A DNA stretch of 64,000 nt, from NCBI RefSeq assembly GCF_000023225.1, contig NC_013173.1, forward strand, positions 1,428,501 through 1,492,500. The letters are read 5' to 3'. The stretch is from Desulfomicrobium baculatum DSM 4028. GTDB lineage: Bacteria > Desulfobacterota > Desulfovibrionia > Desulfovibrionales > Desulfomicrobiaceae. The translations under genes were made by a program, and so were the position numbers. Under the pieces are notes generated by a model. The model was not told where the DNA came from and searched no databases. It saw only the letters and a program-made list of their open reading frames with translations. Numbering within the stretch: position 1 is the stretch's first letter; each line of letters begins with the position of its first letter. This document shows positions 4,695-41,511 of this stretch, one piece after another.

Positions 4695-4702
4695 TGTGAA
4701 TC

Positions 4703-5674: not shown

Positions 5675-5709
5675 TTGGATCTCGATATCTTCAGGGTTGC
5701 ACCGATGGC

Positions 5710-5765
5710 GCCCAGGACACTGGGCGAGACCGTACAGGTGTAGCGTGTCTTGCTGCGCAACGCTA
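5710..5765. promoter_or_regulatory. Paired inverted repeats upstream of the WYL regulator
   Basis: Two dyads lie within 95 bp of the WYL start at 5674. GCCCAG/CTGGGC has a 4-base spacer (5710-5725). TAGCGT/ACGCTA has a 13-base spacer (5741-5765). WYL regulators bind inverted repeats in their own promoters, so either could be an operator. This is positional inference only; no promoter boxes are clear. Confidence 0.35.
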
Positions 5766-5841
5766 GATATGTTGGATTGTATGACAACAAAAAAAGACCG
5801 AGATATCGCTCACATGTACCCGTCGTGTCCAAATTGTTCTC

Positions 5842-6339: not shown

Positions 6340-6390
6340 GATGGGTCTCTCTTTGCTGATTGTGCTGCATGGGCGAATTGCGCCCGAAGG

Positions 6391-7869: not shown

Positions 7870-8064
7870 CGTGCTCCTCGCTTGTTGCGACGAAGGTTTG
7901 GATGTGCTTGACGCATTCCTTGTGCAGTTTGTCGTGTGGCGCGGCAATCATGGCGGGCTGGATGGTCCCGTGATGCTGGGAACATCCCGGCAAAGACTTG
8001 GTGAGGGATGGTGGAAAGAGAGAGGGACTTGTTTAGCGCAGTGAAGGGGTGAAATGGGTGGACT

Positions 8065-9557: not shown

Positions 9558-9573
9558 GGATTCTTCCAGACAA

Positions 9574-9605
9574 ATTGTCACTATTTGTTAATAAGTATGG
9601 ACAAT
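9574..9605. promoter_or_regulatory. Palindromic operator upstream of abiEi
   Basis: A 32-bp imperfect palindrome begins ATTGTC and ends GACAAT, with a TTAA core; 12 of 16 half-site positions match. It sits 16 bases upstream of the chosen abiEi start codon. AbiEi family members repress by binding inverted repeats at their promoter, so this is a strong candidate operator. Confidence 0.6.
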
Positions 9606-9916
9606 ATGTCTTGTCGCGGTTGGAAAATCAAGACCTTTCCGCGCTTATGCGAAGTCATGCGTCTTCTCTGGGAGTAAATCTCGCAACTCGGCAAACTTGC
9701 AGCATCTTTTTGCGTGCAACACTTTGATATTTCGAATATTTTAGAATGTCTTCCCGGCGGGAAGTGAAAAAAACGAGGGATCTTCCCAGCCTCACGGGAC
9801 GATCATCGTGTTCTCGATAGCCAGTGATCATGCGGACTTGGTAATACTGATCTCAAGCGACCTGCTCCGGCAGGCCCAGGATTTCAGACCCAACTGTAGA
9901 CCATTGGAGAGACCAC
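9606..9916. other. Divergent intergenic region
   Basis: This is the remaining shared upstream region of abiEi (leftward) and the AAA+ gene (rightward). It has no gene-like frame. A short dyad ATATT-TCG-AATAT lies at 9727-9739. A GGAGAG ribosome-binding site for the AAA+ gene occurs near 9904. No convincing promoter boxes were identified by eye. Confidence 0.35.
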
Positions 9917-12112
9917 ATGAGACGAATGTTCAGAAGAAGCAATTCCGGTTCCATCGATTCCACGCCCGAAAGTCGCTATGCGCGGATCAAGACGGCGGGC
10001 TGGCTCATGCGTCTTTTTGACAAGCGGATTGTCCTGAGCTCGGAACTTTTCGCGTGCACGGCGTGGTGTCTGGGCGGGCTTGATTTCTGCCTGCAGGGCC
10101 TCATCAAGGAGGCTGCGTCGTTCGTTCCCGTGTCCAAGAGCGAGGACGAGTTGGCGACTCTCGAAGAGCTCAAGCGCGTCTCCCTCTATAATTTAGGCAA
10201 TGCGCTGGAAGATTTTCTGCAGGAACATCCTCGCCATCACAAATCTGCCCGGGCGCTGCTTCAGGCAGAGTGCAGGGAGATGCATTCCACTCGGATGAAG
10301 CGTCCTCGTTCGTACGCCATGGCCGCCAAGCGGCTGGAAGAGCTGTTCGGGCTTGACCGGGAGAGCGTTGAGCTGTGTGAGTTTCTGTTCATCAATCGAT
10401 CTTTTGATTCGGTGGAAAGCTATTTCGAAGACAATTTGCAGGCCATGCGGTTTGGCGGCCTCTATTTTCTGGCTCACATGCTCGGCATCACGGCCTCACG
10501 GTGTCGCAGCATTCTGCGGGAACTGGCTTATCTTGGCATCGCTGAAGTTGATCGAAGGCACGTTGCTCTGGAAGACTCCATTCGTGATCTGTGGACCGAG
10601 AGCGACTCAACGCGCGTATCCCAATCTTTTTGCCGTCCTTTGGAAGGGGAGGCGTTGCCGCTCGAAAATTTCAGCATCCCCGCCGAACAGGTGGAGCATG
10701 TCCGCGCCTTGCTTCGGCAGCCCAGTGACCGCCCTATGCACATCCTTCTCTACGGCGCCCCAGGCACCGGCAAGACGACTTTTGCTCGAAGCCTGGCTGC
10801 GGCCGAAGGCATTCCGGCCTGGTCCGTGAGCCCGCCCCAAGGCGCGGATAATGACCGCCGCGCCCAACTCACAGCCGGAGCACGCATCGCCTCCCAGCAC
10901 GACAAGGCGTTTCTGCTCGTGGATGAGGCAGAGCGCATCCTCGATTGCGACATGTTCTCTCGGGAAAAGAACGTGGATAAAGCCTGGCTCAATACCTTTC
11001 TGGAAAAGCCCGGCCAGCGGGTGTTGTGGATCACGAACCACGTGCATCACCTCGAAGGGGCGGTGCGGCGGCGCTTTCATTTCAGCATTCATTTCGAGCC
11101 GCTGGGGAGAAAGGAGCGGAGCGCCATGTGGCGGCAGATCCTGGAGCGGCGCGGTGTGCTGAATCGCGTGAATGACGCCGAGCTGGCAGACCTGTCCCGC
11201 ACCTACGATGTCCCGGCATCGGTCATGGAGATGTCCGTGACCCAGGCTGCGGCGCTGACCGGGAGAAAGCGGAGCGCCTTTGTCCCAGCGCTCAGGCGCG
11301 TGGTGGATTCTTATCAGACGCTGCTGCGTGATGGCGGCAAGCAGTGCAAGAAGATCGCGGTGGCACCGCACTACGACCCCAAAGGCGTCAGCCTGGAAGG
11401 CTCCGTTGATGCCCTGATGAACAAGCTGACTCGGGTGGATCGCATGCTGCGAAGCGGCGGCGAGCTGAACGCAGGCGCGGCCACGATGCTCTTCTACGGC
11501 CCTCCCGGCACAGGCAAGACCGCGCTCGCCCGGTATCTGGCGGACAGGCTGGACCGGGAGTGCAAGGTTGTCCGCGCCAGCGACCTGCTCGGGCCGTATG
11601 TCGGCATGACGGAAGCGAACATTGCGGAGGCTTTTCGGGATGCGGAGCGTGACGACGCCGTTCTCGTCATCGACGAAGCCGACAGCTTCCTCTTTCCAAG
11701 GGAAAAAGCAGCGCATTCCTGGGAGACCACCCAAGTCAACGAGTTCCTGACCGCCCTCGAAGAATGCCGGGGTTTCTGCATCTGCACCAGCAACCGTCGG
11801 GACAACATGGATCAGGCAGCCATGCGTCGGTTTAGCCACAAGATTGCGTTCACGTACTCCAAGCCGGAGCAGGTGCAGGCACTTTATGACGCACTTCTTG
11901 CGCCACTGGCGTCGGAGCCGATGTCAAAAGAGCTGGAAACGGAACTGCTGGCTATGCGCCGCCTGACACCGGGGGATTTTCACGCGGTTCGTTCACGAAT
12001 GCTATTTGATGGCGCAAAGGGTGTAAAACATCATGTGTTACTTGAGGGTTTGCGCAAAGAGCAGGAATTGAAGCTCGATATCGACCGACGGGGAATGGGG
12101 TTCTTGAAATAG
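9917..12112 (+). CDS. Tandem double-AAA+ ATPase
   Basis: A 731-residue protein with an unrecognised helical N-terminal region (1-255) and two AAA+ modules. Module 1 has Walker A GAPGTGKT near 279 and Walker B FLLVDEAE near 331. Module 2 has Walker A GPPGTGKT near 528, Walker B LVIDEAD near 583 and a sensor-type ICTSNRRDNMD segment. The second module resembles the CDC48/spastin-like group (MTEANIAEAFRDAERDDAVL). Such double-AAA proteins remodel or unfold protein complexes. The downstream PcfJ-domain gene starts ten bases after its stop, so the two form an operon. I do not recognise a named system. GGAGAG precedes the ATG. Confidence 0.75.
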   Translation: MRRMFRRSNSGSIDSTPESRYARIKTAGWLMRLFDKRIVLSSELFACTAWCLGGLDFCLQGLIKEAASFVPVSKSEDELATLEELKRVSLYNLGNALEDFLQEHPRHHKSARALLQAECREMHSTRMKRPRSYAMAAKRLEELFGLDRESVELCEFLFINRSFDSVESYFEDNLQAMRFGGLYFLAHMLGITASRCRSILRELAYLGIAEVDRRHVALEDSIRDLWTESDSTRVSQSFCRPLEGEALPLENFSIPAEQVEHVRALLRQPSDRPMHILLYGAPGTGKTTFARSLAAAEGIPAWSVSPPQGADNDRRAQLTAGARIASQHDKAFLLVDEAERILDCDMFSREKNVDKAWLNTFLEKPGQRVLWITNHVHHLEGAVRRRFHFSIHFEPLGRKERSAMWRQILERRGVLNRVNDAELADLSRTYDVPASVMEMSVTQAAALTGRKRSAFVPALRRVVDSYQTLLRDGGKQCKKIAVAPHYDPKGVSLEGSVDALMNKLTRVDRMLRSGGELNAGAATMLFYGPPGTGKTALARYLADRLDRECKVVRASDLLGPYVGMTEANIAEAFRDAERDDAVLVIDEADSFLFPREKAAHSWETTQVNEFLTALEECRGFCICTSNRRDNMDQAAMRRFSHKIAFTYSKPEQVQALYDALLAPLASEPMSKELETELLAMRRLTPGDFHAVRSRMLFDGAKGVKHHVLLEGLRKEQELKLDIDRRGMGFLK

Positions 12113-12121
12113 AGGTGCGCC

Positions 12122-13294
12122 ATGATCATTGATCCCGAATATTGCGAATTTGATCCAGCCTCGCAGCGACTGACCGTCATTTTGGGTCTGGCTTCCGAAG
12201 GAGGATTCCAGGTCCGGCTACGATCCTGGAACGAGGGAGGGGGAGTGGAACTCATGGAAGGGGGCCGCTGGAAAAGAAACGACGACGCCTTCGACTTCCC
12301 CATTGTTTCCGACGATGTCAGCGATCTTGAACCAACGCACCCGGTGCGAGCATACCATGACGCCCTGCCCGCAGACGTGACCAAGGTGCTGCGTCAGTTC
12401 AGTTCGCTGCAATGCAGACTTCTGCATGTGATCGGCCAGTTTCCTGAAAGCGCGGAGATGGCTGACTCCGAGCCAATCCTCTTTTGGCTGGCATCAAACA
12501 TGCTCGGTCCGGCTCCGTCCAAGGCCGATGTCAGGAGACTTTATGCCCGTCGCCGCGTTTCGATCTTGGAATCATTTTGCTCGGCTTCAAGCAGATCGCA
12601 TCTGAAGTTTTTGTCGAAAATCTGTGAGTTCGGTTATTTATTCAAAGATCTTGAGCTGCTGCGCCGCATTCTTAACGATGGAGAGTTTTTGAAAAGGGTG
12701 CGTCATTATCGGCAGATCAACTGGCCCGTGCTGAAGGTGTTTTACACCCAACGGTACGTGATGGATCTTGGATGCGCCAAGGACTGCCTGGCGGCTGGCA
12801 GCTGCCGGGATGCCTTTCGGTATTTGTACAAGGTCTGTCGTGATATTCGCGGTATCCGCATGATGTGCAAAATGCTCGAGTGCGAAAATCCGGAGCAGCA
12901 GGTTTTCGCCATGAAAAGCGCATTTCAGATCCGTGACCTGCATGATAAAATCGCCAGGGATTTAAGCATAAAAGAAAGAGAAACTATTATTGCCCACTAT
13001 GGTGAACTCTTTCCGCCGTCGCCACTTAAAGAGACAAAAGATATCGAATATATAAGCAATGTTGGCGATTTGCTTGAAGAAGGGCTGGTGATGAGGCATT
13101 GCGCTGGAGAATTTGTCTACCAGGCATTGCGAGGGGATGTTTTTATTTATCGCGTCCACGCGCCGGAGAGGGCGACTATGGCGGTGCAGAGGTCTGCTGA
13201 TGGGAGTTTTTCGATTGAGCAGGTTAAATTGTGTAGGAATGGGAAGGCTTCTGAAGAGACGTGGGAGATATTGAATGCTTGGATAAGTATTTGA
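12122..13294 (+). CDS. PcfJ-domain protein
   Basis: A 390-residue protein. Its C-terminal third matches the PcfJ domain, recognisable by the Met-x-His-Cys-x5-Tyr signature (LVMRHCAGEFVYQAL at about 323-337), followed by the beta-hairpin IYRVHAPERATMAVQ and an SIEQVKLCRNGKASEE block. PcfJ domains occur on conjugative plasmids, phages and islands and their biochemical role is unknown. The N-terminal region is Cys-containing and helical, with no domain I can name. It lies ten bases behind the double-AAA+ gene. Together they may be an ATPase and its client, which is inference from operon layout only. Confidence 0.7.
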   Translation: MIIDPEYCEFDPASQRLTVILGLASEGGFQVRLRSWNEGGGVELMEGGRWKRNDDAFDFPIVSDDVSDLEPTHPVRAYHDALPADVTKVLRQFSSLQCRLLHVIGQFPESAEMADSEPILFWLASNMLGPAPSKADVRRLYARRRVSILESFCSASSRSHLKFLSKICEFGYLFKDLELLRRILNDGEFLKRVRHYRQINWPVLKVFYTQRYVMDLGCAKDCLAAGSCRDAFRYLYKVCRDIRGIRMMCKMLECENPEQQVFAMKSAFQIRDLHDKIARDLSIKERETIIAHYGELFPPSPLKETKDIEYISNVGDLLEEGLVMRHCAGEFVYQALRGDVFIYRVHAPERATMAVQRSADGSFSIEQVKLCRNGKASEETWEILNAWISI

Positions 13295-13624: not shown

Positions 13625-14134
13625 ATGTTGTATTATTATAGTAAAAAAGGTATTTTTTCTCATGTCGAATCTTGTAATGATGTGTTTGAAATTCACTATG
13701 TTGAGTTTGGGTGTAATAAAAAATTAACATTTGAAACTGATGAGCTGATAAAATCAGTTGGACTTAATGGTGATGAGTCTAGTGAAATAATTTTCGAAGT
13801 AATTAAAGATAAATTTAAGGATGTAATGCGTAATATACCAAAGAGATTAATGAAGAAAATTTTTACCAGCCCTGTTCCAAAAGAGTGGAGAGATTTTTCA
13901 AATGAATACATATTTAATAATAAACAAATTAATAGATTTCAAAGTTCTGATGTTGATTTATTTGTTTCTCATTATGGTCCATTTTTTACGTTTGTTTTTA
14001 TTCAAGAGTTAGTAAAATGCTATATCTCGCACGGTCTGCCTGTCCCCTATTTTGCCGAAAGGGTAATTGCTGATCCAGTTAAACGTCTATTTGTGACAGA
14101 AGAGCCTGATCAAGAATGGCAGGATGAAGAGTAA
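13625..14134 (+). CDS. Hypothetical protein, AT-rich orphan
   Basis: A 169-residue protein of unknown family. An AGGGG ribosome-binding site lies upstream of the ATG. The sequence is protein-like: balanced charge, an amphipathic helix around residues 65-80 (MRNIPKRLMKKIF), a hydrophobic segment FFTFVFIQELVKCYI near 120-134, and an acidic tail. There is no signal peptide and no recognised motif. Codon use is far more AT-rich than in the PcfJ operon to its left, marking a separate acquisition. It stands alone on the plus strand. Confidence 0.5.
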   Translation: MLYYYSKKGIFSHVESCNDVFEIHYVEFGCNKKLTFETDELIKSVGLNGDESSEIIFEVIKDKFKDVMRNIPKRLMKKIFTSPVPKEWRDFSNEYIFNNKQINRFQSSDVDLFVSHYGPFFTFVFIQELVKCYISHGLPVPYFAERVIADPVKRLFVTEEPDQEWQDEE

Positions 14135-14549
14135 TTTTTAGTTTTTCTTTTTATATCTCGTATAGCATTGTATTCATTTTCGTATTCATTATCAAAATTT
14201 TATTAAATAATCTCAGCAATTCGGTTTTTAGTTGCGGCCGGAATAAACATTTATTTAACAGGTATAGATCATAAACTCAAGGTGCTGGGTTTAGGTCACG
14301 GTCAACGTTGGTAACCTAAAACTGATCTATAACAAAAATGAATTTTTATTGGATTACAGATTATAAAGAGTGCATAATAAACGAGTTAATTTTAATCTAT
14401 TTCATTAGATTCTTCTGTTTTTCAGGACAGACTATTTTAGTAACTTGCGTTGAATTTTAGTTGCAAGATAAGGTCTTGTAAAAGCGTCGACTTGAAGATT
14501 ATATGATTACTATATTCGATTTGTTGCATTTGTATGAATACTGATTAGC
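14135..14549. other. AT-rich intergenic region with nested inverted repeats
   Basis: There is no gene-like frame. The notable content is a nested dyad between 14,264 and 14,330. Outer arms are ATAGATC / GATCTAT (14,264-14,270 and 14,324-14,330) and inner arms TTTAGGT / ACCTAAA (14,290-14,296 and 14,314-14,320), around a central AACGTT. It could be a structured RNA, a recombination site or a protein-binding site. It lies between the convergent ends of the orphan gene and the helicase operon and has no T-run to mark it as a terminator. Confidence 0.4.
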
Positions 14550-17500
14550 TCAACGTTGTGGCGGTCCGGGCGGTTCTAGCCGAATGCTCCAACGTTCAGC
14601 AATATGCGAGGCTTGGTCCGGGCCAAATTGGCTAATAAGATACTCCAGTAGGTCCTCCTGCCTCGGCTGTCCGAAGACCATACGGTAGAGGGCAAGGCTG
14701 CGTTGTAAGCGGCGATAGCGTCCTTCGTCGCGACTGTATGGTATGGCCAAAATGCGTCTTTCTACTTTAGCGCCGCCTTCGGTTTCGAAGATCCAGTAGG
14801 GGACGAGGTCGTTGCAGCCGTCATTCCGTGTGGCATGAGCCTGTTCGAAGAGAATGCGCCAGGGGTCTTTGCCAAGTGTCGAGGTACCTGCCAGGGCATT
14901 GAGGCCGAAAGCATCGGCAACATTCTTGCGAACCGCGTGACCTTTGTAGCGGTGAACGCGACCCTCTCGCTGTTCCAAGTCTACCGGGTTGGCCGGCAGG
15001 TTCCAGTGCACTACTGAATGGCACCAGACATGGAAATCCAACCCTTCCTGGCCTACTGAGGTAGATGCCAACACGAAGGGGCGAAACGGAGAATTGAACG
15101 CTGAGCGAACAGCTTCCTTACGGGCTACAGACTTGTCCTCTTCGCGTTCGCCAAAACGCATGGCATAGTGGCAGCGGATGGGGAAATGGTCGATGACAGC
15201 TCTGTCTCGACGCACACGGATTTCATCGGGTCGGAGGGTCGATGTGCGGATGGATAGAGCGGTATGAAGTTCCTCGGCGATGCCTTTGGCTGTTTGCTCG
15301 TCTGTCGAATCGAGAAGTCCCAATGATTCGCGCAGAACATGGACCTGCTCGTCAAGTAAGGCCTGGAGGTTGCCTTCAGCGCAGTAGGTCAGTACTTGCT
15401 GCCAGAAATTTGAGGCTTTTTTCTTGCCTTTGACGAGAGCCGTGGCCTCTGGGGAATTGAACTGCTTGCACAGGCCCTTGGCTACGAAGACGGCAGAATT
15501 CCGCAAGGTCAAATCATCGAGCTTGAGTCCGGGACTTGCCCGATGAAGGGCGCGCAGTGCACAAACAGCAGGTCCTGCCAGAGCGATATCGGCCAAAATT
15601 TCGCAGAGGTCGTCCGGCGGTCGGCCTGTACAGTTCTCGACGCCGTCCCATGTTCGCAGCCAACTCTGAAGGAAGCGCCCAAATCTATCTGACTCGTCAG
15701 GACCCTCATCCTCGAAATTGCCGGTACGCGCTGAGGACCAATGTGTTGCGCACCAGTCGCGGAAGAGGTGCGAATTGTCTCGCTCCAGGAAAATGATCGC
15801 CCGCCAGTACCAATCGGAGTCAGGCTCCGCGTCTTCCAAGCCACTGGGAACAAGCGGCTCTAGCCGTTCGCGGATTCTTTGTGCCACTATGGCACGGACT
15901 TCGGCTAGAAGTGGACACTTACCGGTGGTGCTGGCAAGTTCCAGCGGATCGGCTAGAGCGGCCAGGGTTGTAGACGGAAAGAGGAGAGCCAAGGTCATGT
16001 GACTGGCTTGGTTGCGAAAAGCAAACTGTGGCTTGGCGGGATCACCTTTCAAACGCAGGTTAATCTGGAATCTTTTTGCAAGATTATCATAAGCGACCTT
16101 CCGGCCCGCTTCGCGGACCATCAGTCGTTCCACTTCGTAAGAAAGCATGGTGGCGATAGCATCAGGAACCACGTTCCAGCCAGAGAATATTAGGGTCTTG
16201 GTGGCTTGGCGTACGAAGGCAAAGGCGCCTTCTGGCCGCCAGTACGGTAGTGATGGAGGCAGCCAAAGCAACCGCCACAGCCCTGAATCGACGACTTCTT
16301 GGAAGAGCAGTCGTAGGCGGGCGTTTGCTGGCTCTAGCGCTGCGTAGGCTGCGAATCGTTTCTTGTCGAGTAGCCCTTGGGGATGATTGCGGAGGATCTC
16401 AAGAATGCTGTTTGTTTCCGTACCTCTCGTGGTCAGCCGCTCGCGCAGTTTTTGCTTGAGTTTGTAGTCCTTCATGAAATTGAGCAGGTACGGACTGGAC
16501 TTCCAGTATTCGAGCGTATCGGGATTTCCCACTTCGCGACCTACCGCATCGACTAGGCGCAGGTCGGCCAAATCGCCTGCCGCCAGCGGTAGAGTGGGCC
16601 GCTTCTCGACGACCATGGCGTCACGTCTGGTGGTGGCGCAAATCCTTTCCGTACGGCACATCACCCGACGCAGACACCCCTCCACGCTGTTTTTGATCGT
16701 CGCTAGCCCCTCAAAATCGTCCTCATTCCCGGCCGCCTGCAGAGCGCGGCGGAACATTCGGAGATCCTCCTCCAACCTAGCTAGTGAAGCCGGGCTGTCT
16801 AAAAGAAAGCCCATTGTCTGCAGGAAGTCCCGGTAATGGTCTTCCTCTTCGTCATCCCGGGCGAACATTTTGTAAGGGGTAGCCGACAGGAGCAGAACGC
16901 GCAGATCGGGGTTGGGATAGTTGAACAGCTCCTGGGCAAGTTCAGCAACCGGATTTTCTTCCGGATCGCCAAGCAGGTCTTTGAACCGTTGAAACTCGTC
17001 GAGAATGACTAAATTCGGCCTCAATGCGTCTAGACAACTCTTTGCCAGAAGCCGGCGGAGGTTTCCGACGAGCTGAAGACAACGCTGCCGCTGCTCATCA
17101 TGGATGCTTCGCCGGCCATCGTGGTAGATGGCACAAAGTTCAATAATCTCCCTACTTATGGTTGAAGATGCACAAATAGCGCTATAAAATGTGTCAGCAA
17201 TGCCATTATCGAAGTCCAGATCTGAATTAACTTCAGTTCGCCAGCCATCTCCTGCGTTGCCCTGCAGCAGACGAGCGAGTCCATTGGGTGAAACATGAAG
17301 GCGCGAGCGGAGCATCTGGTAAATGAGATGACGCTCTCGTTTCGTTCCGGTCCGATGCCCATGATTGAAGGTCGTACCAGGGGTGAAGCTGATGAAATTA
17401 AGGGAATTAGTTTGGAGGTCACGGACACGAGTTGGTAACAGAGTCAATCGCTCAGGACAGAAGAAGGCCGACCGGCCAGTGATGTTCAATCGACTTACAT

Positions 17501-17753
17501 TTTGCCGGGCGATGTCTGCATTGGAACAGATGTAAATCACATCGATCCGTTCCACTCCTTTGGCTTTCAAGTGGTCGACAATGGAGGCAATGAGACCGCG
17601 GGCCACCAGGGTCTTCCCTAAGCCGACTTCGTCTGCCACCAGAAAACGTCGCGCTGGCTCCTGTTCCTGGTACATTCGCCGAAATACGTACTCCACAGTG
17701 CGGCGCTGAAAGTCCTTGAGGCCTGTCAGAGCAGGGGGGGGGGCAAGCGTCAT
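14550..17753 (-). CDS. SNF2-type helicase, last gene of PLD/DUF6361 operon
   Basis: A 1,067-residue superfamily 2 helicase/translocase. The Q-like and Walker A region sits at the very N-terminus (LKDFQRRTVEYVF, then VADEVGLGKT near residues 42-51). The Walker B is LVILDEFQRF near 245, followed by LLLSATPYKM. The C-terminal helicase lobe is near 900-935, with ASTSVGQEGLDFHVWCHSVV and the arginine-finger block DLEQREGRVHRYKGH. A long insertion separates the lobes. Members act on double-stranded DNA as translocases. Its ATG overlaps the stop of the PLD gene by four bases, so the two are translationally coupled. Pairing of an SNF2 helicase with a PLD protein recalls DISARM and the dpd systems, but the partner genes differ. 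Confidence 0.85.
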   Translation of the reverse strand: MTLAPPPALTGLKDFQRRTVEYVFRRMYQEQEPARRFLVADEVGLGKTLVARGLIASIVDHLKAKGVERIDVIYICSNADIARQNVSRLNITGRSAFFCPERLTLLPTRVRDLQTNSLNFISFTPGTTFNHGHRTGTKRERHLIYQMLRSRLHVSPNGLARLLQGNAGDGWRTEVNSDLDFDNGIADTFYSAICASSTISREIIELCAIYHDGRRSIHDEQRQRCLQLVGNLRRLLAKSCLDALRPNLVILDEFQRFKDLLGDPEENPVAELAQELFNYPNPDLRVLLLSATPYKMFARDDEEEDHYRDFLQTMGFLLDSPASLARLEEDLRMFRRALQAAGNEDDFEGLATIKNSVEGCLRRVMCRTERICATTRRDAMVVEKRPTLPLAAGDLADLRLVDAVGREVGNPDTLEYWKSSPYLLNFMKDYKLKQKLRERLTTRGTETNSILEILRNHPQGLLDKKRFAAYAALEPANARLRLLFQEVVDSGLWRLLWLPPSLPYWRPEGAFAFVRQATKTLIFSGWNVVPDAIATMLSYEVERLMVREAGRKVAYDNLAKRFQINLRLKGDPAKPQFAFRNQASHMTLALLFPSTTLAALADPLELASTTGKCPLLAEVRAIVAQRIRERLEPLVPSGLEDAEPDSDWYWRAIIFLERDNSHLFRDWCATHWSSARTGNFEDEGPDESDRFGRFLQSWLRTWDGVENCTGRPPDDLCEILADIALAGPAVCALRALHRASPGLKLDDLTLRNSAVFVAKGLCKQFNSPEATALVKGKKKASNFWQQVLTYCAEGNLQALLDEQVHVLRESLGLLDSTDEQTAKGIAEELHTALSIRTSTLRPDEIRVRRDRAVIDHFPIRCHYAMRFGEREEDKSVARKEAVRSAFNSPFRPFVLASTSVGQEGLDFHVWCHSVVHWNLPANPVDLEQREGRVHRYKGHAVRKNVADAFGLNALAGTSTLGKDPWRILFEQAHATRNDGCNDLVPYWIFETEGGAKVERRILAIPYSRDEGRYRRLQRSLALYRMVFGQPRQEDLLEYLISQFGPDQASHIAERWSIRLEPPGPPQR

Positions 17754-19558
17754 GAGGCAGCCTCATTGGCCATGGCTGTCTTGAACACTCTCCAGACTTC
17801 CAAAAAATCTTCAGGAAGTATTGGCTCGCCATGCTCGCCGGTAGCATCGTGGAGGCGCTCGACCATGGCGGCCACCTCGTCAAGTCGCTCTGGCTCCCTG
17901 GCCCAAGCCTGAGCAAGCATTTCGAACAGCGGGATATCGGTCAAACTCTCGCTACCCCATGAGCCAAGTCCGATAATGTTGCCCATTGTGGAGGTAGGGA
18001 TGGTTTGCAACTGGCCCCAGTCTGCCAGCAGGAGTAGCAGATATCGCACGAAGGCCTCACGATTTCGAAGGATGGAGCGCAGTATAGCCTGGTCCCGGTC
18101 TTCTGGCCCTCCATGCAGAGGCAGATCAAGAGCAAAACAAGCTTCTTCTTCACCCAGTCGCAGCCTGAATGCTGTCAGAGAAGTGATTTCCGCGGCTGCC
18201 AAGATTCCAAAATCCACCGGTTGCGCAGGATCTAGACCTGACACAGTTATGGCACGTTCTTGGGCGATGGAAAGCGGCCGGACGTCCATGGTGATGTCAT
18301 CCAGTTTGAACACGCTCGTAGAGTGCAGGGTCAGAGTCCAACCATCGGTTTCGAATGCGCAGTGTAGTTCCAACTCCATTTTGGAGAGATTCGTGGCCAT
18401 TGTTTCCAACTTGATGGCATCCGGCGTGGGACCTCCTTCCAATGGAGATTTGGGCGGGGTGTAGTCGATGAGAATTTTTTGCAGACTCTTTTCGCCCGAA
18501 ATCCAAGATTCTGGGCGACCGATCTTGCTGTAGCGACCGATGAGTTCGACAAGAATCTCAACATTGATCCCTCGGACCAGGGCGGCGTCCGTGGCGTTGG
18601 CTGAGCCGATGACAAGATGGGTGTCCCAGCCTTTCTTCAGAACGTATGCCTTGGCATGCAGCCCTTGCAGTTGCCCCAGCCGAACGTCCTCCACGTCGCT
18701 GACCTCAGCCTGAGAATTCAAAGTGAGGCAACGTTCGAAGCTACTGAGGACGCTCGGTATCCGGTCCATTTCCTCGCCCCGCGAGAGAACGAAGACGGGC
18801 TTATCCGTCAATTTCTGCAAGGCTTTTAGGGCCTGTTCTCCGAGAAAGGGCGAGATGACTCCCATCTCCTCGGATCGTTCAGGCAGCCAGCCCGTTGGTC
18901 GCCTGCCTGTCCCCAGAACATGGAACCGTGCCTCGTTGAAGTCTTTTGGCAAATCCCAGCGGCAGCGGCTGACCTCGCGCGACAGGACTCCAAGTTCGGC
19001 TGTACGTTCTTCCGTCAGTGACTTGGAGGTAAACTTCGGCAAGGTGGCAATGAAACCGGACAATGGTTTGTTTGCCTCCATTATCCCGCGTTCCGGTTTT
19101 CCCTCCATTTGTAGACACAGATCCCAGGATCTGTCGGAGGTAAGGTTGCGTGAAGGAACGACCAGACGCAGAAGCGGCGAGTCTTTTCCTTCATTGGCAA
19201 CAAAGCGCAACAACCAAAGTTTGGCATGAAAAGCTCCTCCGTGTGGCGCCACGGATTCATGGATCATCCCTTCTAGCAGACCATAGAGTGGATGCGGACG
19301 GTCGGGGGCTTGCATACGGCCGCGTTCAGAAAAGACAGTCAGTCTGCTGGCTACTCGGCGCAAGGCTTCAACAAGACGAATGGGATCTGTCAGCGGATCC
19401 TGACTGTCACCCAAGCCAAGCCAAGCCAAGTGTAGCGGGATGGATAGGAGAATGGTCGGGTCAAGGGAATACGTGGTCACAACGCCCATGGCGAAACGCA
19501 TTCCCGCTGGTGGAGTCAGTGCGTCGCTGAGTTGGCTGCGGGTATGCGGTGGAATCAT
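17750..19558 (-). CDS. Phospholipase D-like protein
   Basis: A 602-residue protein with two His-x-Lys elements typical of PLD-superfamily nucleases and phospholipases: FHAKLWLLRF near residue 108 and LHAKAYVLKK near 300, the latter followed by the GSANATDAAL block that normally completes the active site. The first half may be catalytically degenerate because I see no clear Gly-Ser-Asn partner for it except RNLTSDRSW. PLD proteins in defence operons are usually nucleases. Start at 19558 was chosen because it overlaps the DUF6361 stop by four bases (ATGA) and the sequence upstream in frame is not protein-like. Coupled to both neighbours. Confidence 0.8.
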   Translation of the reverse strand: MIPPHTRSQLSDALTPPAGMRFAMGVVTTYSLDPTILLSIPLHLAWLGLGDSQDPLTDPIRLVEALRRVASRLTVFSERGRMQAPDRPHPLYGLLEGMIHESVAPHGGAFHAKLWLLRFVANEGKDSPLLRLVVPSRNLTSDRSWDLCLQMEGKPERGIMEANKPLSGFIATLPKFTSKSLTEERTAELGVLSREVSRCRWDLPKDFNEARFHVLGTGRRPTGWLPERSEEMGVISPFLGEQALKALQKLTDKPVFVLSRGEEMDRIPSVLSSFERCLTLNSQAEVSDVEDVRLGQLQGLHAKAYVLKKGWDTHLVIGSANATDAALVRGINVEILVELIGRYSKIGRPESWISGEKSLQKILIDYTPPKSPLEGGPTPDAIKLETMATNLSKMELELHCAFETDGWTLTLHSTSVFKLDDITMDVRPLSIAQERAITVSGLDPAQPVDFGILAAAEITSLTAFRLRLGEEEACFALDLPLHGGPEDRDQAILRSILRNREAFVRYLLLLLADWGQLQTIPTSTMGNIIGLGSWGSESLTDIPLFEMLAQAWAREPERLDEVAAMVERLHDATGEHGEPILPEDFLEVWRVFKTAMANEAAS

Positions 19559-20793
19559 GAATGAAACGCTTTTTGGAGATCGTTGATAAAAGTTTGGGCC
19601 GTGGGCCAGCGATAGACAAGTCGAGCGGTACCGGCTGATCCGCCCCATTGTTTAAGGGCGTTGCGATTGACAAAACGGGACTGAGGACCTTTACGTTTTT
19701 CGCGCATCCTGATCAAATTTCTAGCATCTTTGGAATCTGACACTGAAGCTCCATTGTGGAGAACGATTTGCCACCATTGCTCAACAAAAGTCCGGGTCTG
19801 GCCATTGATAGAATGCCCTTGGGCTACGACTTCCGGCCATAAGGAGGTAGGTGACCAAACGGCAAGTTGATGAAACTCCGAGTCATTCGTCCAGTCCTTC
19901 AACGCCTCGCGGTATTTTTCCGGATTGATTTCAGATGACGAAGGAGCACTTCCGCCTGTTGTCACAAGCTCAGCGTATAATTCTGCCAACTGTAGGTTGT
20001 AGAGCAGGGCCGCGCCCTTATGGAGAAACGAGAAGATACGTCCTTGGTACAGGCAATTCCGGTGAGCCAGAGGAAATGTCTCATACTTCGGGTGCTGCCA
20101 AGGGAAGTCACAAGCGACTCTGTCCGTAAGCGTCTCCGCGCTTCTGGCCAGCCAAGCCAGCAGGGAGTCGCGTTGATGCCTCTGAAGGCATTCCACCAAC
20201 AGGCTTGCTTCCTGCTTGGTGAGATTGAAATCCATACCGGTCGGGAAGTTAGACGGTTTCAACCTCAGAAGGTGCGCATACCAGGTGTCATGACTCTGTT
20301 CATCCAGCCATTCACCGTCGTCACGACGGGTGCGAGACTTGCGGAGAGCATATAATTTTTCAACGCTACGATGGTATTCTTGCTGCGAGCTCTGGAATCG
20401 ACGTAGTCCCCATGCTCCCATACCGGACCAATAAATGGAGCTAGGAAGACGCTTCAGGGTAGCTCCGGCTTCGCGGCCGATGACTCCCGTTTTTTCCGTC
20501 TTCCCTAATTCGACCATGAGCCGTGCCTCGGCCTCACGTCCTTTGCTCAGCATTTCGTTGGCCGGCACTCGATGTTTTTCCAACCCTGCGTATATCCACG
20601 GAATGAAACACATATACCGCAAGCGAGTCTGGATGGTGGATGTGCCAGGAAAAAGGCGATCGGCGATGGCATCGCGTATAGCGCCAATGCCGAGTTCGTC
20701 GCGAGATTCCTTTTCTTTGAACAGCGCCAGTAGTCTTAAGCTGCGCTCATATGCTGCGCTGTCGTGGTCGAGCCAGGTAAGGGATGCTGTCAT
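19555..20793 (-). CDS. DUF6361 family protein
   Basis: A 412-residue protein that I recognise as the DUF6361 family from its N-terminus (LTWLDHDSAAYERSLRLLAL, then ELGIGAIRDAIADRLFPGTS and YMCFIPWIY). The family has no assigned biochemical function. It has Trp- and Arg-rich helices and no membrane segment or catalytic motif that I can point to. It is second in a four-gene operon with four-base overlaps on both sides, between the small 148-residue gene and the PLD gene. Tight coupling to a PLD protein and a helicase suggests a subunit of a DNA-targeting complex, which is inference. Confidence 0.8.
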   Translation of the reverse strand: MTASLTWLDHDSAAYERSLRLLALFKEKESRDELGIGAIRDAIADRLFPGTSTIQTRLRYMCFIPWIYAGLEKHRVPANEMLSKGREAEARLMVELGKTEKTGVIGREAGATLKRLPSSIYWSGMGAWGLRRFQSSQQEYHRSVEKLYALRKSRTRRDDGEWLDEQSHDTWYAHLLRLKPSNFPTGMDFNLTKQEASLLVECLQRHQRDSLLAWLARSAETLTDRVACDFPWQHPKYETFPLAHRNCLYQGRIFSFLHKGAALLYNLQLAELYAELVTTGGSAPSSSEINPEKYREALKDWTNDSEFHQLAVWSPTSLWPEVVAQGHSINGQTRTFVEQWWQIVLHNGASVSDSKDARNLIRMREKRKGPQSRFVNRNALKQWGGSAGTARLVYRWPTAQTFINDLQKAFHS

Positions 20794-21236
20794 ATTTTTT
20801 TTGCGAGTTTTATATAAGATTTCCCTACGTCCAAATGAGATTTTTCAACGATATTTTTGTCGATAAATATTGATATCAATTTCATCTTATTTTCTAATTC
20901 TTCGTCTAGTATGCCATGGGTTATAGATTTTAATCTAATCTTGTTAAGTTTTTCAAATTCTTCAGATTCCTCGATATAATTTATAAATTTATTTAATTCG
21001 CCGAGTATTTTCTGTGTTTTACATTTTAATGTCAGCTGTTTTTTGATTTTTTCAATACAATTTGTGTGATCTGTGTCGCCAATCTCATAGTTATTGTTGT
21101 CATAACAATAGCGATCCGCAAATTGCCTAACGGACCAGCCCATACAGGCGAGGTGAGTTTGAATAAGCCTTTGCATTTCAAAAATTTCATCTGAAAAATC
21201 GGTTTTTTCCCCATTTTTCCCAATGACGCGTGGCAT
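20790..21236 (-). CDS. Small helical protein heading the DUF6361-PLD-helicase operon
   Basis: A 148-residue protein starting at 21236 (MPRVIGKNGEK), chosen for the GGAGAG site just upstream; two earlier in-frame ATG codons exist. Residues 15-50 (MQRLIQTHLACMGWSVRQFADRYC) look like the first helices of an XRE-type helix-turn-helix; the remainder is Lys/Glu/Ile-rich and helical. It may be the operon's regulator or a small structural subunit. AT-rich codon use contrasts with the GC-richer DUF6361 gene that it overlaps by four bases, so it may have joined the operon later. Confidence 0.6.
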   Translation of the reverse strand: MPRVIGKNGEKTDFSDEIFEMQRLIQTHLACMGWSVRQFADRYCYDNNNYEIGDTDHTNCIEKIKKQLTLKCKTQKILGELNKFINYIEESEEFEKLNKIRLKSITHGILDEELENKMKLISIFIDKNIVEKSHLDVGKSYIKLAKKI

Positions 21237-21275
21237 AGATCTCTCCATCGAAATCATTCAACCTAGGAGGTGTTT

Positions 21276-21431
21276 ATGTCTAAGTCCAAGAAGTCATCCA
21301 ATCCCATTAAGCCCAAAGACAACAGTTCGAATATGCCCAATCCCAACAAGGGCACTTCGGGGACAAATCGTCAGCATGATCAGGTACACGGTAACCGTGG
21401 GAAGCAACTCAATCCAAATCAAAATCAGTAG
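21276..21431 (+). CDS. Tiny basic Asn/Pro/Lys-rich protein
   Basis: A 51-residue frame too short for most gene finders, but preceded by a perfect TAGGAGG five bases before the ATG. The protein is basic (7 Lys, 2 Arg, 2 Asp) and low-complexity, with Ser/Lys at the start, a PNPNKGTSGTNRQ centre and the end GNRGKQLNPNQNQ. Similar small unannotated proteins with a conserved Gly-Asn-Arg-Gly-Lys-Gln-Leu/Met-Asn-Pro-Asn tail are, to my memory, widespread in proteobacterial genomes; no function is known to me. It is divergent from the DUF6361-PLD-helicase operon, 39 bp away, and followed by a second tiny gene. Confidence 0.7.
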   Translation: MSKSKKSSNPIKPKDNSSNMPNPNKGTSGTNRQHDQVHGNRGKQLNPNQNQ

Positions 21432-21446
21432 AAATAGGAGTCACAA

Positions 21447-21578
21447 ATGTCGAATATGAGCCAATCTGAACTTGATCTTTGGTCAGACATCAATAATCCA
21501 AACAATGACGCTGATATGGACGATTGGTCTGATGCACATAATCCTAATAATGATTCATATTTAGGAGATGATGAATAG
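21447..21578 (+). CDS. Tiny acidic protein with two WSD..NPNND repeats
   Basis: A 43-residue protein with TAGGAG seven bases before its ATG, starting 15 bases after the basic gene. It contains no Lys or Arg and about twelve Asp/Glu residues. It is built from two imperfect copies of Asp-x-Trp-Ser-Asp-x-x-Asn-Pro-Asn-Asn-Asp (DLWSDINNPNND and DDWSDAHNPNND), about 18 residues apart. The Asn-Pro-Asn-Asn repeat resembles small repeat proteins seen in many proteobacteria. Charge makes it a natural partner for the basic protein next door, or a DNA mimic. Both ideas are inference. Confidence 0.65.
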   Translation: MSNMSQSELDLWSDINNPNNDADMDDWSDAHNPNNDSYLGDDE

Positions 21579-21631
21579 GGTTTTTTCTATTGAGGGGTTG
21601 CCAGTGCGTGCTGATAACCCCTTGCTGATAT

Positions 21632-22066
21632 TTATTGTAAAAATTTTGATGCTTCATACGCGTGTTTTTGAAATTCATTAGCAAATTGTGCTGTGTCACC
21701 AGAATACTCAGAATAGCTGATATTTTCTTGCGATTTCTCAAGAGAATACACGCATATTTTTAATTTATGGCTGACATATTCTCTTGGAATTAAATAGCCA
21801 GAGCCTGAAACGCATTTGTCAATTATTGAGTATTCTACGCTTATTGGATATCTATGAGAGTTTTTTTGGTATTGTTTGTATCCAAATAATCCAGACGATA
21901 CTAGCATGCTTGTCATTAATATTGATGCTGCTGCTTTTTTAAATTTTGTTCCGGAAAATGATTTATCACATTTTTCGCAATTTGTGTTTTCAAGGTGTAT
22001 TTTGTTTTCAGTTTTACAATGTGGGCATTCAAGAATGATGTTTTTTACATTTTTTAAAGATTCCAA
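21632..22066 (-). CDS. Zinc-ribbon single-pass membrane protein
   Basis: A 144-residue protein starting with TTG at 22066 (GAGG lies five bases upstream). Residues 13-35 hold a CPHC...CEKC zinc ribbon. A transmembrane helix follows at about 47-62 (AAASILMTSMLVSSGLFGY), then about 80 residues of polar C-terminal domain that would face the periplasm if the ribbon is cytoplasmic. AT-rich codon use matches the neighbouring tiny genes. No named family. It ends 53 bases from the stop of the tiny acidic gene, converging on it. Confidence 0.6.
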   Translation of the reverse strand: MESLKNVKNIILECPHCKTENKIHLENTNCEKCDKSFSGTKFKKAAASILMTSMLVSSGLFGYKQYQKNSHRYPISVEYSIIDKCVSGSGYLIPREYVSHKLKICVYSLEKSQENISYSEYSGDTAQFANEFQKHAYEASKFLQ

Positions 22067-22096
22067 AATTACCTCATTGGCAAATTTAATTGAATT

Positions 22097-22190
22097 TCAA
22101 GTATCCAAAAAATCCAAAGCAGGGCCAGTGCTTGTGACAAGAAGGTGATCTCTTGAGCTGGTACATGCTACATAAAGACATGTGGCGCCT
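22097..22190 (-). pseudogene. C-terminal scrap of a UvrD-type helicase
   Basis: Read on the minus strand, this stretch encodes LYVACTSSRDHLLVTSTGPA and ends with a TGA at 22097-22099. That is a motif VI-like tail of a superfamily 1A (UvrD/Rep) helicase. The frame is closed just upstream by a stop and gives way to an unrelated IS630-type fragment. No start or other helicase motif survives nearby. It is most likely the tail of a helicase gene that was destroyed by insertion and deletion. Confidence 0.6.
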
Positions 22191-22385
22191 CAGTCCCTGT
22201 GGCTCGGACGTGACCTCGTGCAACGCCCAAATATCGATCCGTTTATTCTTCAAAAATCTCAGCAGTTTTTGATATTTCGCCTGCGGGGCTGGATCAGCGT
22301 GCGCTATCGTCGGCCGAGGATTGCGGAGTCGAAAACCGAGCTGCCAGAAAAGGCGCTGACATTGACGAACTCCAAGCGAGATCCT
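22191..22385 (-). mobile_element. IS630-family transposase remnant
   Basis: The minus-strand frame reads LGVRQCQRLFWQLGFRLRNP followed by TIAHADPAPQAKYQKLLRFL and IDIWALHEVTSEPQGLRRHM. This matches the linker between the N-terminal helix-turn-helix and the DDE domain of IS630-family transposases, whose intact form reads roughly LGF..KPRP.IAHAD and then a Trp-Ala-x-Asp-Glu catalytic block. Here the catalytic Asp appears as His (ALHEV). About 65 codons remain with no start, no C-terminus and no inverted repeats, so the element is dead. Confidence 0.65.
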
Positions 22386-22445
22386 CCATTTTTATCTTAG
22401 GACTGGCATGCTACTGGGAATCATACAAAACAAACATAAGAAAAT

Positions 22446-22925
22446 CTAACTATACGGTAACACTAGTTTTGTTGATATACTATTATTTTGCAGGCCAACC
22501 CACAGTCCCCCTGGGAAGGGATTTGTACCCACGATCACCATGAGCATCGCGTGGAGTTCATGGGTCGACTTCTGGAAGCGACTTTGGAAAGTCTGGTAGT
22601 CCATTGGCGAGGGGGTGGGAATAGTCGCCGGATGCGTATGCCAATCACCCAAGTAGTGCAGCCCCTTTTCGAATTCGGCATTGATCTCCCTCTGATCAGC
22701 CCGTTGGTTTAAAATGATCCTGTTCCAGAATCTTCGATAGGCAGATACCGGTCCGGTCGCCTTCTCTACCTTCATAATGTTCGGGGCGGGGAATGTCCCG
22801 AACAGTTGCCCGCCTGCCTCACTGCGCCCCCCTCGCTGCGCGTTCGCTTCAAAGTGGGCAAGGACGTTCGGAGTGAGGGTGACAACTAGGCTGGACCCCT
22901 GGGCCGTAAAGGTCAACTCCTGCAT
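22446..22925 (-). CDS. cap3: CBASS Cap3, JAB/MPN-family isopeptidase
   Basis: A 159-residue JAMM/JAB-fold metalloprotease. The zinc site is intact: Glu36 in RSEAGGQLFG, His96 and His98 in GDWHTHP, and the Ser106-x-x-Asp109 pair in SPMD. In type II CBASS, Cap3 removes the conjugates that Cap2 forms on the CD-NTase and so tempers the system. Start at 22925 (MQELTF) was taken because AGGG lies upstream; an ATG nine codons earlier is in frame. It overlaps the end of cap2 by 13 bases and is the last gene of the operon. Confidence 0.9.
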   Translation of the reverse strand: MQELTFTAQGSSLVVTLTPNVLAHFEANAQRGGRSEAGGQLFGTFPAPNIMKVEKATGPVSAYRRFWNRIILNQRADQREINAEFEKGLHYLGDWHTHPATIPTPSPMDYQTFQSRFQKSTHELHAMLMVIVGTNPFPGGLWVGLQNNSISTKLVLPYS

Positions 22926-24835
22926 ACGTGGCAACCCTTGTCCTGATCCCATGGGGCTGTAAAGAAGGTCCCTTCGTGCCTAGGGGGAAGAAAATCGGCA
23001 GCCCAGTCGGATTCACGACCATCGTGAGCGCTGATTATGCTGGCTGCAGCAACGTACACGCGCTGGCTGGGTGATTCGACCTCACCGAGAAGCACCTCAA
23101 TAGAAAATTTGGCAGTCATGGATGCGATAGGATTCATCTCCAAAGCACCATACGGCATGAATGAATCTCCGCAGGCCGGGACCAAAGTCTTAAGGAGTCT
23201 TTCGCGAGGGAATGTACACGCTTCGCTTTTAACTGTACGCCCCACTTCTATGCCGCACTCCAAGCATCCGGAAGCAAAATCCACAAGCACTGCCTTCCCC
23301 GCACAACAGTAAGCCTCTGCCCATGCGAAAATTGTATCAGGCACGGGTCTCTTCCTACTATACGATACCAAAACACGATTCAGGAATAAATTCGACTGAA
23401 GTTCGCCGGTTGTGGACAGGATCAAATCTGCCCCAAGAAGCTCTTCTTTGTGCTTCGGGATGTTCAGGGCCTCTTCCCACTTCAAGGGGATCCCATTAAG
23501 TGACAGATGCGGAAAACGTCGGAGGAGTGCTCGGCTCGTCTCCCTGGCCTTGTTCCCGCGTATGGTGTCAACTCCCAGCAAATGGCGACCGATATTTCCT
23601 GCCTCCATGTCATCATGGTCCAGGATCGTAAGTTGGCCAACGCCCGCCGCGCACAGCATCTCCGCCACCCGACTCCCGAGGGATCCCGCGCCGATCAAGA
23701 CCACATGGGATTCGCTTAGTACCTGCTTCTTTTCCGATGCGGAATCGTCCCCTCCTCGGAATCCGAGCCAATCGCCATCGACGCGTGTGATATTGAACGG
23801 CAATATCTCGCCACCAAGGCCGAAAAACTGTCTCTGGATCAGATTACTCATACCGGGCTGCCAATAACCTGAAGAAGTCTTTGGACCTTGATTTCTGGAT
23901 GGTGGAAGCGCAAGCAATCCGGCGAGAGCTGGTCCGTGTTCCGTATCGAACCCAAAGCAAATCGGTAGGTCGTTGCGGCGGCCTTTTGCCACCTTCCTAA
24001 TGGCCTTCTGGCGTTTTGTAGGAGTGCATGCAAGGAGCACCTCCGCGGCAGCATCGTCCGCCAACGAAAGGAGCGCACGGAGGTGCTTGTTTCTCAATGG
24101 GTATAAACCCGGCATGAGCCCTTCTTTCAGCCAAAGAAACGCTGCGGGTTGTGTATACACCTTAACGTCGGGACCAAAGACGTTCTTGGCCCAAGCCACC
24201 CCATCCTCTTGATTTTCAGCGAGGAGGTAACCTGCTTTCTTGTCTCCGGTGAGTGTTAGATGGGATACGACCCGGGATCGCTTTATGGATATTTTAAGAA
24301 GAGACCAGCGAGGTTTCATAGGCGTTTGCTTCAATCTACAAAAATTGGCCCAATAGCTAAGAAATTCTTGTACAAAATGATCCGCGTTTTTCCTCGAAAA
24401 ATTGTCACGTAGAAGAACCGCCGTGGCGGCTAGAAGATGGTCGCAAAGGTCGCGGCACATTGCGTCGTTCAGAGCAGGATATGCATTGTCCTGCGGTCCC
24501 AGAAGACACAGTCTGCCACTGAGCTCGACGTGAGGATACTGTATGGCCATCTTCTCATGAGGTTCAAGGAGGTAGACGTCGGGAGGAGACAGAGGAAAAC
24601 AGTTCCGCAGGAAGATTCCAAGGATAACTTTATGGTCATCAACATTAAAAGGGAAAGACCAACCTTTTGCGAATACTCCTTTGGTGGAGGTGCGCTCTTG
24701 GATTTCCACGAGGGAGAGCTCTTCAATGTCGCCGACAAGCCGGTTTAGGTGTCGTCCGATACCTCCCGCAGCCTTATAGTAGATTTCTGGGAAAAAAGGT
24801 AAAAAGGAGCCTTTAGCCAAAGGTGGTGTCTCCAC
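22913..24835 (-). CDS. cap2: CBASS Cap2, E1-E2 ubiquitin-like transferase fusion
   Basis: A 640-residue protein. The N-terminal E2-like domain has its likely catalytic Cys110 in SGRLCLLGP, preceded by the PLSPPDVYLLEPH strand region. The C-terminal E1/ThiF adenylation domain starts with the nucleotide-binding IGAGSLGSRVAEMLCAAG near 380-397, with the ILDHDDMEAGNIGRHL block and Cys residues around 525-545 (GCLECGIEVG...SEACTFPRER), one of which is the probable E1 Cys. Cap2 joins the C-terminus of the CD-NTase to target molecules, priming it for signalling. It overlaps the CD-NTase gene by 23 bases and cap3 by 13. Confidence 0.9.
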   Translation of the reverse strand: METPPLAKGSFLPFFPEIYYKAAGGIGRHLNRLVGDIEELSLVEIQERTSTKGVFAKGWSFPFNVDDHKVILGIFLRNCFPLSPPDVYLLEPHEKMAIQYPHVELSGRLCLLGPQDNAYPALNDAMCRDLCDHLLAATAVLLRDNFSRKNADHFVQEFLSYWANFCRLKQTPMKPRWSLLKISIKRSRVVSHLTLTGDKKAGYLLAENQEDGVAWAKNVFGPDVKVYTQPAAFLWLKEGLMPGLYPLRNKHLRALLSLADDAAAEVLLACTPTKRQKAIRKVAKGRRNDLPICFGFDTEHGPALAGLLALPPSRNQGPKTSSGYWQPGMSNLIQRQFFGLGGEILPFNITRVDGDWLGFRGGDDSASEKKQVLSESHVVLIGAGSLGSRVAEMLCAAGVGQLTILDHDDMEAGNIGRHLLGVDTIRGNKARETSRALLRRFPHLSLNGIPLKWEEALNIPKHKEELLGADLILSTTGELQSNLFLNRVLVSYSRKRPVPDTIFAWAEAYCCAGKAVLVDFASGCLECGIEVGRTVKSEACTFPRERLLKTLVPACGDSFMPYGALEMNPIASMTAKFSIEVLLGEVESPSQRVYVAAASIISAHDGRESDWAADFLPPRHEGTFFTAPWDQDKGCHVCRS

Positions 24836-25850
24836 CCTTGTCTACGGCCTTCTTGGGTATCCCCCCCGTCGCGACGAAGCAATTGCGATTCTCGGGATTG
24901 TCTTCCTCTTCATCCTCAATGTACTGATCGAAGTAGTGCGTGTTAAAGAACTTATTCCATGCGTCTAGTGCTTGATTTTTAGTGCAGTCGGGGTCGTCAA
25001 GGATTTCGAGCTTCGGGAGCCACTCGTTGAGCTTGGCCTGCAAATTGTCCATCTTGGCCTCGCGTCCGGACGCGAAATCCTCATCGAGATCGGGGGCGGG
25101 GTGCTGGGCGGTCTTGTCTCCTCTGTCCAGGCGGCACTTGAGGGCCTTCAAAAGAGCATGAAACGCATTGTCGTCACGGTCGCGCCGGGGAACGTACAGT
25201 TCGTCGACCAAGACGGAGAAGATCAAACCGCTGGGAAGGTTCCACGACGCCCGACTAGATGACCAAGCTTTGAGCAGGCACACAAGTCTACGCATCTGGT
25301 AGGGTTGATTGTCTTCCGGGCTTTTTTCGGGGACCACCTTCTTGAACCAGTTGGTTATGATCTGCGGATTCGACTCAATCCAGTCTGCGGCGGCCAGTTC
25401 GCGGTGTTCGGTGCCGTCGTCATCGGTCCACTCTCGATATACCGGAATGTCGACGTGGTAGCCAGCTGCGTAGTGTACGCGGACGCACTTTGGGAGACAC
25501 TCGGGCTTTTTCTTGAAACTTCCATCGTCAATGGCATCGCGGACCATCTGGCGAGCTGCCAACGCCGTCTTGTCCGCGCCCTGGGCACCTTTTAGGTCGT
25601 CACGGGAGAAGCAGGCCCCGTCATCGATGTCGTAGTCATCGTCAGGACGCTGGACCATTGTGTACATCGCGTAGGATCCCTGAATCAGATGATGTGTGGG
25701 CGTAGGCATCATGTTCTTTATCAAGCCATTCTTCAAGCGATTACGGTTTGTCTTACGACGCTCCTTCATCTCCTTCCTTTTATCTTCAGGCAGTTTGACC
25801 TCGCCCCCATAAAACGCAAACAATTCAGCATGAGTATTTATAGTGGTCAT
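24813..25850 (-). CDS. cdnA: CBASS CD-NTase, DncV-like cGAMP synthase
   Basis: A 345-residue nucleotidyltransferase. The catalytic core is GSYAMYTMV at residues 58-66, followed by the metal ligands in DDYDIDDG (Asp74 and Asp76), with a third acidic residue in YHVDIPVY. Order and spacing match the DncV-like clade A enzymes that make 3',3'-cGAMP-type dinucleotides from ATP and GTP on phage infection; the exact product cannot be read from sequence. The C-terminal tail ends ...GGDTTFG, a terminal Gly as expected for a Cap2 substrate. It overlaps the patatin gene by four bases. Confidence 0.9.
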   Translation of the reverse strand: MTTINTHAELFAFYGGEVKLPEDKRKEMKERRKTNRNRLKNGLIKNMMPTPTHHLIQGSYAMYTMVQRPDDDYDIDDGACFSRDDLKGAQGADKTALAARQMVRDAIDDGSFKKKPECLPKCVRVHYAAGYHVDIPVYREWTDDDGTEHRELAAADWIESNPQIITNWFKKVVPEKSPEDNQPYQMRRLVCLLKAWSSSRASWNLPSGLIFSVLVDELYVPRRDRDDNAFHALLKALKCRLDRGDKTAQHPAPDLDEDFASGREAKMDNLQAKLNEWLPKLEILDDPDCTKNQALDAWNKFFNTHYFDQYIEDEEEDNPENRNCFVATGGIPKKAVDKGGDTTFG

Positions 25851-38022: not shown

Positions 38023-38074
38023 GGGGTATAGCTCCTTGCATTACAGGATCATCGAGTAGCTCACTACTTTTGGA

Positions 38075-41503: not shown

Positions 41504-41511
41504 GGGAGTTC

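Follow-up and report, generated by a model that had tools for sequence, protein, structure and literature searches.

The window analyzed here, a 64,000-nucleotide stretch of the Desulfomicrobium baculatum DSM 4028 genome (contig NC_013173.1, positions 1,428,501 to 1,492,500), encodes on its minus strand a complete and apparently intact copy of the three-gene defence system Azaca (zacA-zacB-zacC), which by its family is predicted to act against phages. We give this reading, drawn from sequence comparison, a probability of roughly 0.93. An earlier note on the same DNA had proposed a new defence complex of four genes. Its DUF6361, phospholipase D (PLD) and helicase genes correspond to zacA, zacB and zacC, and judged by these matches the locus is an ordinary copy of an already catalogued system, the very outcome by which that note had said its proposal would fall.

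Gene layout and assignment to Azaca

Four open reading frames (ORFs) were found on the minus strand at 14550-21257, with neighbours joined by four-base ATGA overlaps at all three junctions (20793-20790, 19558-19555 and 17753-17750), so that the layout of four same-strand genes described earlier was confirmed throughout. The mechanical ORF list places the start of zacB at 19648, giving a longer ORF; the ATG at 19558, which creates the overlap with the zacA stop codon, agrees with the start of the aligned homologues. A scan of 14100-22500 returned 12 promoter-like sites (7.9 in shuffled sequences, standard deviation 3.0) and 6 terminator-like sites (9.7 in shuffled sequences, standard deviation 3.2), counts which are little informative on operon structure.

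The last three genes were assigned to Azaca since their matches to the PADLOC Zac profiles are nearly full length and lie far above any other model: ZacA scored 414 bits (covering 1-393 of 396), ZacB 541 bits (1-584 of 586) and ZacC 1142 bits (8-1016 of 1019). The runner-up models for ZacC, whose best matching segments span about 50-65 residues, were PDC-M27C (66.9 bits), DrmD (48.2 bits) and DpdE (46 bits); those for ZacB were mREase_IV (13.8 bits, E 0.0022) and DrmC (13.3 bits, E 0.0074). All three proteins are thus represented at full length by adjacent genes on one strand, in the order zacA-zacB-zacC, with the catalytic motifs of ZacB and the ATPase motifs of ZacC intact. The domains named in the earlier note were also recovered. 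ZacA matched Pfam DUF6361 with 202.8 bits (cut-off 25), and ZacC matched Helicase_C with 31.1 bits (cut-off 23.5) and DEAD with 27.1 bits (cut-off 26). ZacB reached only 16.8 bits for the Pfam PLD-like family, under the cut-off of 27, yet its sequence contains two HxK motifs.

PMC10952713 credits Azaca to Millman et al. 2022 and attributes a PLD-like domain to the system. PMC10121019 and PMC12278908 count Azaca among the systems identified in Escherichia coli genomes and treat ZacC as a superfamily 1/superfamily 2 helicase, respectively. Among the matches listed in our literature search, defence papers naming Azaca do so one to three times each and none is a paper on its mechanism; the term 'DUF6361' was not found in the papers searched.

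Table 1. Position and description of the features in the window that are discussed in the text.
Feature	Position	Strand	Description
zacC	14550..17753	minus	1067 aa; SNF2/RapA-like helicase-translocase of Azaca
zacB	17750..19558	minus	602 aa; phospholipase-D-type protein of Azaca, two HxK motifs
zacA	19555..20793	minus	412 aa; DUF6361 protein of Azaca
155-aa ORFan	20790..21257, start perhaps 21236	minus	ATGA overlap with zacA; probably no Azaca component
Tiny ORF	21276-21431	plus	51 aa
Tiny ORF	21447-21578	plus	43 aa
144-aa ORF	21632-22066	minus	AT-rich, TTG start; between CBASS genes and 155-aa ORFan
CBASS genes	22446-26950		JAB, E1-E2, cyclase, patatin-type effector
BREX operon	28530-42853		BrxL, PglZ, AbiU-like gene, PglX, BrxC, BrxB, BrxA
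AbiU-like gene	32906-34600	minus	140 bits; embedded between pglX and pglZ
pglX	34597-38022		PglX, BREX methyltransferase; PADLOC 1829 bits
Integrase gene	48992-50263		
Two-gene pair	9917-13294	plus	Protein with two AAA stretches, then PcfJ-domain protein
Island-edge genes	2913-9677		NERD-UvrD protein, WYL regulator, ADP-ribosylglycohydrolase, AbiEii gene

Conserved residues and structural relatives

The Zac proteins of the window were aligned with homologues to which they are 27-47% identical. For ZacA, 15 sequences were aligned: that of the window, 10 from the 11 phylum loci that carry the complete gene set and 4 from the 5 plasmid loci. L024, whose zacA is interrupted by a stop, was omitted, as were L027 (a fragment) and L030 (unannotated). 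The ZacB alignment held 11 sequences (the window, 6 of the 11 phylum and 4 of the 5 plasmid loci) and the ZacC alignment 9 (the window, 5 of the 11 and 3 of the 5). The motifs GLGKT, DEFQ, SATPY, SxGQEGLDF and QREGR show no variation among the nine ZacC sequences. In ZacB, both half-sites are preserved in 11 of 11 sequences, the first with His111, Lys113, Arg137 and Asn138 and the second with His301, Lys303, Gly318, Ser319 and Asn321. ZacA contains a block, DELGxGxxRDxxADxxFPGTSTIQTR, of which the named positions are invariant in 15 of 15. The main value of the locus lies in this material, as the conserved ZacA and ZacB residues are targets for testing.

When compared to solved structures, the ZacC profile matched RapA (best E 8.2e-6, about 50 residues), and the second half-site region of the ZacB profile matched residues 110-156 of the 'putative helicase' in PDB 7clg (E 4.6e-4, about 50 residues). 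The single ZacA sequence found no match among the PDB sequences; its 15-sequence profile gave five matches to solved structures at E 0.056 to 0.4, which were taken as chance, and a single-sequence structure model was unusable (mean predicted local distance difference test score, pLDDT, of 34).

Conservation and linkage of the zac genes

Two overlapping draws of genomes were searched, 395 from the phylum and 199 from the order. ZacA was detected in 13 of the 395 phylum genomes, counting its own, and in none of the 14 control genomes. Eleven of the 12 other ZacA-bearing phylum genomes have zacB and zacC directly downstream of zacA in the same order, bearing out the co-occurrence of DUF6361 with the PLD and helicase genes that had been put forward as a check. 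Two of these 11 loci look damaged, one (L024) by a stop inside zacA, its stretch ending within zacC, and the other (L025) by a zacB split in two pieces; in the twelfth genome (G297) the match covers no more than roughly the first 84 zacA residues. Plasmid records include ZacA relatives in 45 cases (E <= 1e-5) and ZacC relatives in 48 (E <= 1e-30), and ZacC is found near ZacA in 44 of the 45, the exception being NZ_CP015523.1. Cronobacter plasmids make up 19 of the 45 ZacA records and are, given their near-equal identities, probably mostly redundant. Annotations place the three zac genes next to one another in Cronobacter, Bradyrhizobium and the archaeon Halomarina. As the linkage is conserved across genomes, the clustering of the three large genes is not due to chance.

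At E <= 1e-60, ZacC gave 15 matches, of which 4 are partial, in 14 of the 199 order genomes; the 15 other genomes of the same genus that were listed had none, so the locus adds one Azaca copy to a genus in which these other genomes lack ZacC at this threshold. Together with the integrase gene in the window, this distribution suggests that the locus or its defence island was acquired horizontally. Viral contigs scanned with the ZacA alignment yielded no relative, and genome contigs scanned with one protein yielded a single match of 84 residues.

A set of 11 plasmid records (H153-H163) encodes divergent DUF6361 proteins that are ZacA-like only over approximately the first half or two thirds, and 10 of the 11 also carry a divergent ZacC-like helicase nearby. 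These records possibly represent a second Azaca subtype.

Comparison with other defence systems

DISARM (defence island system associated with restriction-modification) shares with the Azaca locus an SNF2-like helicase (DrmD) and a PLD protein (DrmC), and its clusters are further marked by DrmB (DUF1998), DrmA and a DISARM methyltransferase. Dpd is characterized by DpdA and preQ0/deazaguanine genes with other Dpd proteins. A new defence system related to either would draw on the local ZacC matches to DrmD and DpdE given above and to DrmA (35 bits), with best stretches of about 50-60 residues, and on the very weak match of ZacB to DrmC. However, the nearly full-length scores of 1142 bits for ZacC and 541 bits for ZacB rule such a system out, leaving it next to no probability. 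Among the matches listed for the 20 island proteins of the window scanned with PADLOC, no DISARM or Dpd model was a best match and DrmB was absent; for Dpd the only matches were the local ones of ZacC to DpdE (<=46 bits). The methyltransferase of the island scores best as BREX PglX (Table 1) and does not speak for DISARM membership. The earlier note was therefore right to set the locus apart from DISARM and Dpd, and its classification as a defence locus also agrees with the PADLOC profiles, which place it in the Azaca family. Its remark that no methyltransferase gene is present applies within the four genes and not to the island, where pglX is found. Its view that no host-modification gene would be needed is in keeping with the conserved set of three genes.

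Type IV PLD-helicase restriction enzymes (PADLOC mREase_IV; PDB 7clg, which we take to be SauUSI) combine a PLD-type motif with a helicase, as Azaca does. They consist of a single fused chain, whereas Azaca has three separate proteins and the likeness is limited to about 50 ZacB residues. By comparison, previously defined Azaca matches the window locus in all three proteins over nearly their full length, and in gene order and tight junctions; the window locus differs by the non-conserved 155-residue gene joined to the front of zacA.

Proposed mechanism

From the domains we propose an outline mechanism, to which we give about an even chance. ZacC would be an ATP-driven double-stranded DNA translocase moving along DNA, ZacB a nuclease that cuts DNA and carries both HKD half-sites on a single chain, and ZacA a recognition or assembly subunit. 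Together the three proteins would bind and cut invading DNA, similar to a split PLD-helicase restriction enzyme, and would rely on the state of the DNA, not on a host methylation mark, to tell self from non-self. The previous proposal that the locus acts on DNA is probably right. Several points weigh against this picture. The role of ZacA is a guess, as the protein has no structural relative by sequence and its structure model was unusable; DNA cutting by ZacB and a single three-protein complex are what we infer from the domains; phage protection by this particular copy is predicted by family; and the linkage is not absolute, 4 of the 48 plasmid ZacC records being without a listed ZacA relative.

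The main rival concerns the mechanism only and would leave the locus an Azaca system acting by abortive infection, in which ZacC may sense phage DNA and release or activate ZacB, which would then degrade nucleic acid of the cell itself. It is modelled on Hachiman (HamAB), which according to the abstract of PMC12278908 shares the logic of a helicase with a nuclease, the sensor helicase restraining the nuclease. Hachiman has two genes compared to three in Azaca, though, and the PADLOC matches listed for ZacB and ZacC include neither HamA nor HamB. Furthermore, ZacC resembles RapA- and DrmD-type proteins and ZacB is a PLD protein. We regard the abortive mode as possible but rather unlikely.

The 155-residue ORFan

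The gene that precedes zacA had been counted in the earlier note as the fourth member of the complex. Its product had no significant match in PADLOC, PHROGs, NCBIfam or the PDB sequences, its best Pfam match (E 0.066) fell short of the cut-off, and plasmids and phages gave nothing at E up to 1. The gene was found solely in its own genome among the 395 phylum and 199 order genomes. A single-sequence structure model (mean pLDDT 44) was uninformative on function. Since the gene has no relatives, is not conserved with the zac genes and differs sharply from them in GC content (32% compared to 53-55%), it is probably a neighbour and not an Azaca component, and Azaca stands as a three-gene system.

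A four-gene Azaca variant, in which the small protein would be a real accessory or regulator (e.g. keeping ZacABC silent) translationally coupled to zacA, would explain why the small gene overlaps zacA by ATGA and has a plausible ribosome-binding site: the candidate starts are 21257, 21248 and 21236, and GGAGAG lies just upstream of 21236. Furthermore, 155 open codons at 32% GC are improbable by chance (about 5e-6 per single frame, uncorrected for the number of frames). The lack of relatives in either genome draw, the lack of any blastp match (E<1) when the ORFs at the 12 other ZacA loci were searched, and the deviating composition nevertheless make this variant improbable. In its more specific form, the ORFan would be a lineage-specific Azaca control protein, acting as silencer or trigger, and the locus a regulated four-gene variant. 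To this we assign only a slim chance; if true, the small subunit would show how Azaca stays inactive in healthy cells.

Two tiny, divergently oriented ORFs with NPN(N) motifs lie upstream of the 155-residue gene (Table 1). The 43-residue one has an 83% identical relative (over 40 residues) in 1 of 100 other order genomes searched (G040), located approximately 3.5 kb from an ORF that resembles, by eye, a mobilisation/relaxase gene. The 144-residue ORF appears by eye to encode a zinc-ribbon and a membrane segment, and had no significant match in NCBIfam.

Defence island context

The zac genes are adjoined by genes of CBASS (cyclic oligonucleotide-based antiphage signalling system) and BREX (bacteriophage exclusion), and the Azaca locus accordingly sits in a defence island. 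For this single locus, the expected company of known defence genes was thus found. Within the BREX operon an AbiU-like gene is inserted (Table 1). On the other side of zacC, the protein with two AAA stretches, for which IetA was the best PADLOC match (126 bits), and the PcfJ-domain protein form a possible uncharacterised two-gene defence pair, and further genes of defence type lie at the island edge.

An AddAB-like pair beside Azaca in other genomes

In other genomes, Azaca is adjoined by an AddAB-like two-gene set of a large PD-(D/E)XK protein and a UvrD-type helicase. The window contains no such pair by tblastn with the pair of plasmid locus L029 at E 1e-5, and 'AddAB-like' in a defence context was not found among the literature matches listed, which says little about what is in print. 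A plasmid search with the L029 nuclease, for which 60 of 64 nuclease records were listed, placed a relative no more than 10 kb from ZacA in at least 11 of the 45 plasmid ZacA records (the L029 record included), upstream on the same strand in 10 of these 11; at least 4 further records have one at about 24-25 kb. The UvrD gene lies between the nuclease gene and zacA in all three loci inspected (L029, L030 and L032). Two of the 11 phylum loci, L018 and L022 (limited stretches), encode a PD-(D/E)XK protein downstream of zacC, together with the beginning of a UvrD-type gene. The UvrD gene there matches that of L029; the L029 nuclease has no match there at E 1e-5, so that the two nucleases are related to it by Pfam assignment alone. 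In a PADLOC scan of four nucleases, those of L018, L029 and L032 had no match at E 0.001 and that of L022 matched DruK with 22 bits.

Perhaps the pair is an accessory module that defence loci share, and its recurrence beside Azaca and other defence genes may be worth a study of its own. Hand-chosen plasmid loci with the pair have as neighbours TerB, ATPase and helicase genes (L033), multiubiquitin and ThiF genes (L034), nucleotidyltransferase, ThiF and Mov34 genes (L035) and AbiE genes (L036). A WYL gene is found near the pair in L018, L029 and L035.

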